Below are positions 10,752 to 13,199 of a stretch of 64,000 nucleotides of DNA, in pieces. The translations under genes and the position numbers were made by a program. The notes under the pieces were generated by a model, which was given only the letters and a program-made list of their open reading frames with translations, was not told the origin of the DNA and did not search any database. Numbering within the stretch: position 1 is the first letter of the stretch; the number at the start of each line of letters is the position of its first letter. Source of the DNA: Porphyromonas sp. (GTDB lineage Bacteria > Bacteroidota > Bacteroidia > Bacteroidales > Porphyromonadaceae); the NCBI GenBank assembly GCA_022772085.1, contig JALFBN010000003.1, positions 62,001-126,000 of the forward strand, read 5' to 3'.

Positions 10752-13199
10752 TCAGAGTGGATCTATATCGTAGAGAATATGGGACCGTCGAGCTTCTATC
10801 GAGGTTGCTTCTAACTGTCTCTGCATCTGAAGTAATACGGTTCTAACTTGTGAAGTAGAGTAGTGTGGATCTATTTTTAGGGTCAAATGACGGATATTCC
10901 AAAGCCGAACATAAGAAACATATGGTTTGATAGGACCCAGTACATCGGCCAGCATTGAGTGGTTCTTTAGTAGGAGCAAAAAGTGCGTTGCCACGGATAC
11001 TGCATCTTTCTCCTCTTTACTTTTGATAATTATATTGATCAAACGCTTGTAAGGAGGGAAGCCAAAAACAGAACGTTCCAAGAGTAGTGAGCGGATATAC
11101 TCATTCCTACTATGATTATTCGATTGTAGCAACAGTTGGATCAGGGGACGTTCAGGATCTTTGGTTTGTAAGATCATTTGGGAATCGGGATATTGGACTG
11201 ATAGGCGATACAACAGAGAGAAGACAAATTCATCTGTTCTAAAATCAGGAATTGCCAGCATTTGATCCAATTGTGGCACAGCAACAAGTCCTACCTCTCT
11301 AATAGATAGAATATTGGACAGCATTTGTGTGCCGACATACAGCGAAGCATCCCCCCTTTCAATCTCTTGATAGATGTTTTTTCGTTTGCTCTTGGCATTG
11401 GTTGTATCAGCATCAATACGTATGATTTTCTCTTGAGGATAGCATTCTGTCAAACACTCTTCGATACGTTCAGAGCCATAGCCGATCTTTTGTAATACCT
11501 CTTTTGGAGCACCGCAATGGGGACAAGCAGAAGGACTATCCTGATGAGTTCCGCAATAGTGGCAATTAAGGGTATTGCCTGATTGATGATATGTAAGGCT
11601 GACATCGCATTGAGGGCATCGGATGCTATTGCCACACCTCTTGCATAGAAGGTAGGGGGCATATCCACGTCTAGAACTTAAGACCAAGACCTTTTTCCCC
11701 TTCCGCAATGTATTCGAAATAGCTTGCTGTAAAGGAATGCTTAGCAATGACGCGAATCTTTGGCGTTTAGTTGCATATTCATAAGCTAAATCAACGACCT
11801 TAATTGAGGCTCTGGGAGAGGATTCAGAAGAGTATTCAGCAAGGAACTTACCTTGCTCTACATTGTAAAATGCCTCTACCGAGGGGGTAATGGAAGTTAG
11901 TAAAAGCGGAATTTTTATTTTGGTTGCCCGATAAATCAAGTAATCACGGGCATTGAATCGGGGGGTAGAGTCCTTCTGTTTGTATAGAGAATCCTGCTCT
12001 TCAGCGATGATCACTAGCTCTACTCCTCGCAGAGGAAGTAATCCCGCCATGCGATTTCCGACAAGCAATAACGGCTCATCACCTTCTAACAGACGGTAAC
12101 GCAAGGAAGCTCGCTCTCGATCAGTGAGATCGCCTGTATAGAGGAAGAGAGGCGTCTCTCTAGGAAGTCCTAGAAGCCGACATAAAACCTGCGGATCTCC
12201 CTCAACACCCTTGCTTTGAGGCAAAAGCAGTAGCACTCGTCCCCCAGAAGATAGTACCTGTGCGGCATAATGGCCAATACAATGCAGTTCATCTTCTAAA
12301 TGGGTTGCCGCATAGTAATTGGGACGATCGACCTCAAGAGAGGGAAGTGATACCAACGAATAGGCTATTGATCCTGTATGAGTAGGTTGAGGTTGTTGTA
12401 ATACACGTTCCAAAATTCCCTCTTTGAGCAATAGACTAAGCAGATGTTTTTTATTTGGATTATCACCTACGAGTGTCCGCTCTGGCACCAAATCAGCCTC
12501 CTTTTTAGAGGAGGTTTGTAGTGTAATAAGATCGTACAATAATGACAGTCGAGCCGGTCTCTTTTTATATGCTTGTATGAGTTCTTCCAATGTAGCTTCG
12601 TTTTGGTAGGGCTTGGAGAAATGTAAATACCATTCCCCGATATGTTTATTTACTCCCCGAACCTGCTCTTTAGAAGTAAATATCCCATATTGAACCAAGC
12701 GATCGAAGAGGACAAGTTTGTTGCGTCCCGGGATGTATGTTAGCAATTGGTCGAATGGAAATTTCTGCTTGTGTTGTACTCTCAGGGTCTCTAGCAATTC
12801 ATTTTCTGAGCGAGATAGTGAGGATGTGAGATCTGCTTTGTCAAAATCAATGTAGACCTCTGTTTTACTCTCGGGCAACAAGATGGGTGGAATAGCTGCA
12901 CGTACGAAGTCTCCCATCGTCGCCATATAATAAAAGGCCCCCCATGACCATGAAGCGATTTCCTCTTCACAGACAATAGGAGACCTATCGGGTAAATATA
13001 AAATGGATTTTAGTTTGGTTGAATCTACACCTTGAGGGAGTGTTTCGTCTAGAGAGGCAATAATCCCAACATAAATCCTTTTAGAGCCAAATTGCACGAC
13101 ACAGCGCATTCCGATCTCGATCTCTTCTTGATACTCAGGAGGCACGTTATAATGATAGGTTGTACCCAACTGAAGAGGGAGCAGAACGCTTGAGTACAT
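10752..13199 (-). CDS. priA: Primosomal protein N' PriA lacking helicase motor motifs
   Basis: PriA recognises abandoned replication forks and helps reload the replicative helicase. The 815 residues align in order with the family: DNA-binding N-terminus (1-110), helicase lobe 1 (about 290-460), eight-cysteine zinc region (C519 to C562: CKRCGN, CPQC, CHYC, CPHCG) and lobe 2. The motor residues are missing. Where Walker A (GVTGSGKT) should be there is ATHLEDEL (298-305), putting E304 at the lysine position; DEEH is AEEQ (399-402); SAT is SIT; and the AGRAGR motif is replaced near 666-671. The reading frame is uninterrupted, so this is not decay by frameshift. It begins 1 base after nfnB ends. 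Confidence 0.93.
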   Translation of the reverse strand: MYSSVLLPLQLGTTYHYNVPPEYQEEIEIGMRCVVQFGSKRIYVGIIASLDETLPQGVDSTKLKSILYLPDRSPIVCEEEIASWSWGAFYYMATMGDFVRAAIPPILLPESKTEVYIDFDKADLTSSLSRSENELLETLRVQHKQKFPFDQLLTYIPGRNKLVLFDRLVQYGIFTSKEQVRGVNKHIGEWYLHFSKPYQNEATLEELIQAYKKRPARLSLLYDLITLQTSSKKEADLVPERTLVGDNPNKKHLLSLLLKEGILERVLQQPQPTHTGSIAYSLVSLPSLEVDRPNYYAATHLEDELHCIGHYAAQVLSSGGRVLLLLPQSKGVEGDPQVLCRLLGLPRETPLFLYTGDLTDRERASLRYRLLEGDEPLLLVGNRMAGLLPLRGVELVIIAEEQDSLYKQKDSTPRFNARDYLIYRATKIKIPLLLTSITPSVEAFYNVEQGKFLAEYSSESSPRASIKVVDLAYEYATKRQRFASLLSIPLQQAISNTLRKGKKVLVLSSRRGYAPYLLCKRCGNSIRCPQCDVSLTYHQSGNTLNCHYCGTHQDSPSACPHCGAPKEVLQKIGYGSERIEECLTECYPQEKIIRIDADTTNAKSKRKNIYQEIERGDASLYVGTQMLSNILSIREVGLVAVPQLDQMLAIPDFRTDEFVFSLLYRLSVQYPDSQMILQTKDPERPLIQLLLQSNNHSRNEYIRSLLLERSVFGFPPYKRLINIIIKSKEEKDAVSVATHFLLLLKNHSMLADVLGPIKPYVSYVRLWNIRHLTLKIDPHYSTSQVRTVLLQMQRQLEATSIEARRSHILYDIDPL

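Follow-up and report, generated by a model that had tools for sequence, protein, structure and literature searches.

The window, that is, the whole stretch of 64,000 nucleotides of Porphyromonas DNA that was analysed, carries on its minus strand a priA-like gene (10752..13199), which forms a single uninterrupted open reading frame of 815 codons plus stop. The encoded protein scored 316.5 bits against the NCBIfam model TIGR00595 (cut-off 230.35), which places it in the PriA orthologous family. It remained below the own cut-offs of the narrower PRK05580 subfamily models and scored lower still (26-118 bits, far under the cut-offs) with the PRK14873 models, which we take to represent the actinobacterial PriA group. 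A PDB sequence search with the window protein returned six matches, all of them PriA entries. The genome of the window (2.06 Mb, 99.95% complete) contains a single PriA, the window gene, and neither the protein search nor the TIGR00595 search detected a second one in it. The four further TIGR00595 matches in this genome were weak (51, 38, 32, and 18 bits) and are read, judging by their sequences, as Mfd, UvrB, RecG, and a DEAD-box RNA helicase. An earlier note on this DNA had described an uninterrupted PriA of 815 residues and had raised the question of a second copy; the description is borne out, with the strand now added, and the other matches in the genome reach only 18-51 bits.

The motor motifs of the window protein, all encoded on the minus strand, were located by alignment. 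The Walker A position (motif I) is occupied by ATHLEDEL (residues 298-305; 12285..12308), where none of the six conserved positions is kept; here and below, a position counts as conserved if at least 90% of 114 Walker A-containing PriAs share it. Motif II reads AEEQ (399-402; 11994..12005) where DEEH is expected, motif III reads SITPSVE (436-442; 11874..11894), and the motif IV region reads SSRRGYAP (508-515; 11655..11678). Motif V, GTQMLSNILSI (623-633; 11301..11333), retains GTQM and five of nine conserved positions, and its KG is gone. At the position of motif VI, RLSVQYPD (665-672; 11184..11207), the arginine motif is erased (0/7 conserved positions). A pattern search of the whole window protein found zero occurrences of G....GK[ST], A....GK[ST], and GR.{1,2}R. 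Walker A (GxTxSGKT), motif VI, and DEEH, the features of an active superfamily 2 PriA helicase, are all missing. The earlier note had given the same readings for motifs II, III, and V (AEEQ, SIT, and NILSI) and had reported AGRAGR as absent, in agreement with our results. Motifs I and VI together retain 0/13 conserved positions, as opposed to 94/143 elsewhere in the protein (Fisher p = 3e-6). Therefore, the loss of motor motifs exceeds chance.

ATHLEDEL had previously been described as aligning to motif I without gaps. Its location at residues 298-305 stands, but the gap-free register, in which GVTSSGKT is paired with ATHLEDEL, was obtained in only three of five MAFFT alignments; the other two shift the register or insert gaps. 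No register in any of the five gives GKT in the window protein, and a motif I loss that is merely the artefact of one alignment was rejected on this comparison. In the AlphaFold2 model, a helix starts at residue 304, where the K-T of the P-loop would sit, and this predicted helix start fits the gap-free register. Residues 270-302 were modelled with a pLDDT below 50, and the alignment underlying the model is one of the two register-shifting ones (A3).

Parts of PriA outside the motor are retained. The 3' DNA-binding domain (residues 4-104; 12888..13190, minus strand) matches PF17764 (PriA_3primeBD) with 72.7 bits (cut-off 22.7), and Pfam gave 59-89 bits for this domain in each of ten PriAs examined, of which seven belong to the families f9 and f83 (one of them with Walker A) and three to the family of the window. 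In the stretch before motif I, 20/27 conserved positions are kept. The same holds for 6/8 positions in the aromatic-rich fork-wedge loop and the segment next to it (...LYKQ...PRFNARD, 403-419; 11943..11993, minus strand) and for 14/14 in the zinc region (519-562; 11514..11645, minus strand), which lies inside the second helicase lobe and matches PF18319 (Zn_ribbon_PriA) with 40.4 bits. As stated in the earlier note, the eight zinc cysteines are present (C519, 522, 528, 531, 546, 549, 559, and 562), and they are invariant in the 33 of 36 family sequences that were aligned. The C-terminal domain (716-814; 10758..11054, minus strand) reaches 26.2 bits with PF18074, just below the cut-off of 26.9, which is exceeded by some relatives. 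The AlphaFold2 model, based on an alignment with 61 relatives taken from the 80 named-record controls introduced below, has a pLDDT of 83.8 and a pTM of 0.75. Its top nine Foldseek matches are all PriA chains (E 1.5e-41 to 5e-27), and the fork-bound E. coli PriA (8fak) gave a TMt of 0.81. These matches show that the protein, as modelled, keeps the overall architecture of PriA; they refer to architecture only, because the scores are chain-wide with a large rmsd, and imply no detailed superposition.

We subsequently compared the PriA proteins of the window's family (f1), which comprises 38 genomes from two genera, the window genus (26) and a second genus (g2, 12). A PriA match is present in 26/26 genomes of the window genus and in 37/38 of the family; the one genome without it is rated 89% complete, and none of the listed matches contains an internal stop. 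None of the 36 readable PriAs of the family (the window protein, 24 congeners, and 11 second-genus proteins) has Walker A or motif VI. The PriA of the remaining congener, L026 (the 25th), is cut off by a contig end; it begins after Walker A and is not readable there. The earlier note had asked how far the motif loss extends across Bacteroidales; within this family it is lineage-wide. DEEH (motif II) is retained in five congeners and two members of the second genus, some congeners carry DEEQ, and motif II is eroded in some lineages. From the retained DEEH in these five congeners and two members of g2, we infer that motifs I and VI were probably lost first and that motif II erodes later. A sequencing error or chimera was rejected as the source of the window sequence, because all 36 readable PriAs of the family share the loss.

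A GK[TS] P-loop is present in 115/116 other PriAs that were read, the exception being L076. These controls consist of 36 PriAs of the order and 80 from named records, the latter being the best 80 of 588 retrieved with motif II and motif IV patterns; the record of L154, one of these 80, has the title Azovibrio. L085, which NCBI assigns to Porphyromonadaceae, has Walker A and lies outside f1 in our trees. An even sample of the phylum contained PriA in 147/148 genomes at E <= 1e-30. The TIGR00595 match starts at model position 1-2 in 146 of these 147 PriAs (529-640 bits); the window protein alone starts at 18 (318 bits). Model position 18 pairs with window residue 312, and Walker A is therefore located at about positions 4-11 of TIGR00595. 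In a sample of the order (148 genomes), 145 were above the TIGR00595 cut-off; two members of f1 start at 18 and 11, G119 starts at 9, and nearly all others start at 1-2. In six genomes of this sample (G059, G065, G144, G151, G154, and G176), PriA is incomplete or divided between contigs or stretches. In G343, the model match is partial and PriA is intact on inspection. Even with a profile that includes degenerate PriAs, no match was obtained in G053 and G129 (order) and in G034 (family), and G068 (order) and G301 (phylum) gave just weak matches (E 1e-8 to 1e-9). These five genomes are rated 89-99% complete and could represent either assembly gaps or real absence of PriA.

Among 124 sequences compared, motif VI is absent from all 45 PriAs without Walker A. 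The 79 PriAs with Walker A carry the GR..R of motif VI in 78 cases, and one cannot be read at this site. Of the 45 PriAs without Walker A, 43 still have the [YF][KR]Q of the aromatic loop. These data bear on the idea that the window protein is a divergent helicase that binds or hydrolyses ATP via an unorthodox site. The uncertain register of motif I in 2/5 alignments, the low confidence with which this segment was modelled, and the DEEH or DEEQ of many congeners would agree with such a site. But the window protein has neither a P-loop nor an arginine motif anywhere, and motif VI is missing along with Walker A in every one of the 45 proteins, which makes this explanation highly improbable.

The losses are not restricted to f1. 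In the sister family f9, a search of 59 genomes at E <= 1e-30 yielded 51 PriAs, all of which were read, and GK[TS] is present in 44/51; it is lost in the genera g225 (3/3) and g231 (3/3) and in G388. The zinc region is also lost in three f9 genera, g225, g231, and g226. In g226, represented by one genome, the zinc region is gone and Walker A and motif VI are present. A further genus, g235, gave no PriA match at E <= 1e-30, and PriA was found in 3/3 of its genomes with the profile including degenerate PriAs. Its two fully readable copies, with 547 and 585 residues in their open frames, have neither motif I nor the zinc region, and motifs V and VI are not recognisable in them; they match the 3' DNA-binding domain and C-terminal parts of that profile. 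In total, the zinc-less PriAs are L209-L214, L216, L252, and L253, from g231, g225, g226, and g235. Within the family of G119, Walker A is lost only in G119 and G337 among 29 PriAs, 15 of which were read by eye and the rest judged by the start of the model match. The loss of Walker A and motif VI in these two is separate (L076 in G119, 1.2 Mb; L217 in G337, 1.0 Mb). Walker A is intact in those larger-genome relatives of G119 that were read.

A first tree was calculated from 63 chosen rows and a larger one from 99 of the 124 sequences (25 were left out), and 48 rows were chosen for tests; the trees are of a quick kind with long branches, and g235 is in none of them. In trees built without the motif columns, f1 forms one clade (96 and 97, both starred) that adjoins rows of the sister family f9. 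The neighbour group of f1 in the larger tree consists of 29 f9 rows, and 13 others are placed elsewhere; therefore, f9 is not a single clade in PriA. On the best trees, the state of Walker A has to change five times. AU tests, for groupings that were chosen after tree inspection, gave p 0.099 for f1 together with g231, p 0.019 for g231 with g225, and p 0.0008 for f1 with g231 and g225. A single loss common to f1, g231, and g225 was thereby rejected, as was the grouping of g231 with g225. Walker A thus appears to have been lost at least four times within the order, each time along with motif VI; we count at least four losses and not five, because a loss shared by f1 and g231 was not rejected. 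A sign test for the joint loss of motifs I and VI gave p 0.125 with only four supported pairs, so the joint loss is a pattern and not a proven correlation. On the broader view that Bacteroidales have repeatedly and wholly discarded the PriA motor, on four or more occasions and each time by joint loss of Walker A and motif VI, in some lineages along with the zinc domain, we consider the odds to be even. The same balance applies to the proposal that PriA of the zinc-less lineages, at about 550-660 residues, would essentially amount to a dead first lobe plus the 3' DNA-binding and C-terminal domains. If true, restart in Bacteroidales would be a matter of fork recognition alone, and DnaB would be loaded without PriA unwinding or an E. 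coli-type docking site on the zinc domain.

Eight close within-genus pairs (L008/L009 and seven in the L015-L019 group) gave dN/dS values of 0.09-0.14 (NG86) and 0.10-0.19 (YN00), and a pair of the second genus (L031/L043) gave 0.19 and 0.18, respectively. In four more pairs dS is saturated (2.0-4.1, NG86), and their nominal ratios are low. The motorless PriA of f1 is maintained by purifying selection, since the close pairs give dN/dS values of 0.09-0.19. At the same time, PriA evolves rapidly: its median identity is 33% within the genus versus 46% in a subset of 60 from the 114 Walker A-containing PriAs, and the identity of the window protein to its genus is 31-56% for PriA versus 51-75% for RecG. 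This rapid evolution also fits weakened constraint. It would likewise be expected of a decaying gene that is leaving the genome and keeps a minor role after restart has moved to another pathway, as would the erosion of motif II in some lineages and the additional disappearance of the zinc domain from sister genera. We nevertheless regard decay as unlikely: the gene persists in all but one, incomplete, genome of the family without internal stops among the listed matches, dN/dS is about 0.1-0.2, and the fork-binding parts have been selectively retained. Fast divergence also leaves room for recruitment to another task, such as a structural DNA-binding or checkpoint role, with DnaB loading lost. 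For this we found no direct support, the protein is the sole PriA found, and the domains that it has retained are those for fork recognition; such a new role is quite unlikely.

A loader and ordinary motors are encoded alongside this PriA. DciA matches were obtained in the window genome and in 25/26 genomes of the window genus; 26/38 genomes of the family are above the cut-off, and some of the matches are weak. In the second genus, just 4/12 genomes have a DciA match, and the loader there is perhaps divergent or replaced. A match to RecG is present in 37/38 genomes of the family, and the window genome contains three UvrD-type frames. The question of a compensating helicase, raised in the earlier note, can thus be answered to the extent that RecG and UvrD-family motors are present in the window genome. 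On contig G007:C30, the RecG match is in two frames, one of which has a stop; this genome is 88% complete with 6% contamination, and the broken RecG is perhaps a sequencing error.

Taken together, we think it likely that the sole PriA found in this genome, devoid of ATP binding and hydrolysis, is maintained as an ATP-independent fork-recognition platform that reloads DnaB. We favour this reading because of two precedents, the E. coli Lys230Ala variant and the PriA of D. radiodurans. In this model, abandoned forks or D-loops would be gripped by the 3' DNA-binding and C-terminal domains together with the aromatic loop and the zinc domain. These parts would also expose the lagging strand, or hold it, in single-stranded form, which would allow DnaB to be reloaded, probably with DciA. 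Forks with a duplex lagging strand would go unserved or be opened beforehand by RecG or a UvrD-family helicase. Retained binding of forks and DnaB is predicted from the kept binding domains only. For the window's lineage, we infer that ATPase activity is absent, that forks are bound and DnaB is loaded, and that a helper motor, if there is one, takes part, and the loading step would follow by analogy to E. coli, where the partners are PriB and DnaT. Weighed against the platform are the patchy occurrence of DciA in the second genus and the fast evolution of PriA. The claim that this PriA is a pseudohelicase is supported at the sequence level by the motif loss in 36/36 proteins of the family and by the single PriA in the genome, and restart in f1, and in the related groups that share the loss, probably works without PriA unwinding DNA.

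PriA pseudohelicases are already known as a kind. We found no earlier report of a Bacteroidota PriA without its motifs in the listed titles and abstract openings of the open-licence literature, and no biochemistry of a PriA of this family in the literature searched. Apparently new in that literature are the Bacteroidota case itself, motifs I and VI being erased and not just poorly matching with a changed lysine, the recurrence of the loss in a single order, and the disappearance of the zinc domain. P. gingivalis is presumably a species of the window's genus. Its priA (PG2032) is reported to decrease in expression in biofilm, as do dnaA, ssb, dnaE, and dnaN (PMC2637884), which we count in favour of the platform. 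Neither 'priA' nor 'primosom' occurs in the main text of an essential-gene paper on this species (PMC3547785), which we count against it. Our results bear on the question why bacteria retain the PriA helicase although E. coli survives without it. A family with an erased motor, next to sister genera that keep the motor or lack the zinc domain, amounts to a natural part-deletion series. This series suggests which pieces of PriA are indispensable for restart, the 3' DNA-binding domain foremost, and the suggestion is testable by comparing neighbours.

Motorless PriA proteins have also been proposed elsewhere. Actinobacterial PriA is annotated as a probable restart protein in which helicase motifs are not detectable; it is likewise believed to be motorless, and the window protein is far below the cut-offs of the PRK14873 models. 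Variants of E. coli PriA at Lys230 were reportedly studied by Zavitz and Marians in 1992. In the sections consulted of a more recent paper, the ATPase-dead Lys230Ala is a variant in the DnaB reloading assay, and ATPase and helicase are described as dispensable for PriA-PriB restart in vivo (PMC10175261). The same sections report that E. coli PriA contacts all fork arms and that its zinc domain then rotates, which results in a pore around the lagging strand (PMC10175261). The earlier note had likewise stated that an E. coli Walker A mutant still supports restart. These E. coli variants are ATPase-dead proteins that reload DnaB with PriB and DnaT and are laboratory point mutants, whereas the motor loss in f1 is natural and family-wide. 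As to the loader, DciA promotes DnaB loading in Caulobacter, as stated in the part of the study used here (PMC9825169).

The PriA of D. radiodurans had been named before as a reported pseudohelicase, and the original paper agrees: the protein binds forks and DnaB, its ATPase is not measurable, its unwinding is negligible, its motifs I and II are poor matches, and arginine replaces the lysine of GKT (PMC4504706). The authors leave open whether another helicase takes over, and a word search of the paper for Bacteroid-, Porphyromonas, Actinobacteria, and Mycobacteri- gave no occurrence (PMC4504706). The window PriA has the feature that characterises this type, catalytic motifs ruined in a maintained gene. 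As in D. radiodurans, Walker A and B are ruined, and the protein would act in restart without unwinding. The two proteins come from different phyla, and they differ in that motifs I and II are poor in D. radiodurans, while motifs I and VI are erased in the window PriA. ATPase and binding have been measured for the D. radiodurans protein. Unlike in D. radiodurans, the loss in Bacteroidales recurs within one order, and some genera have in addition dispensed with the zinc domain.
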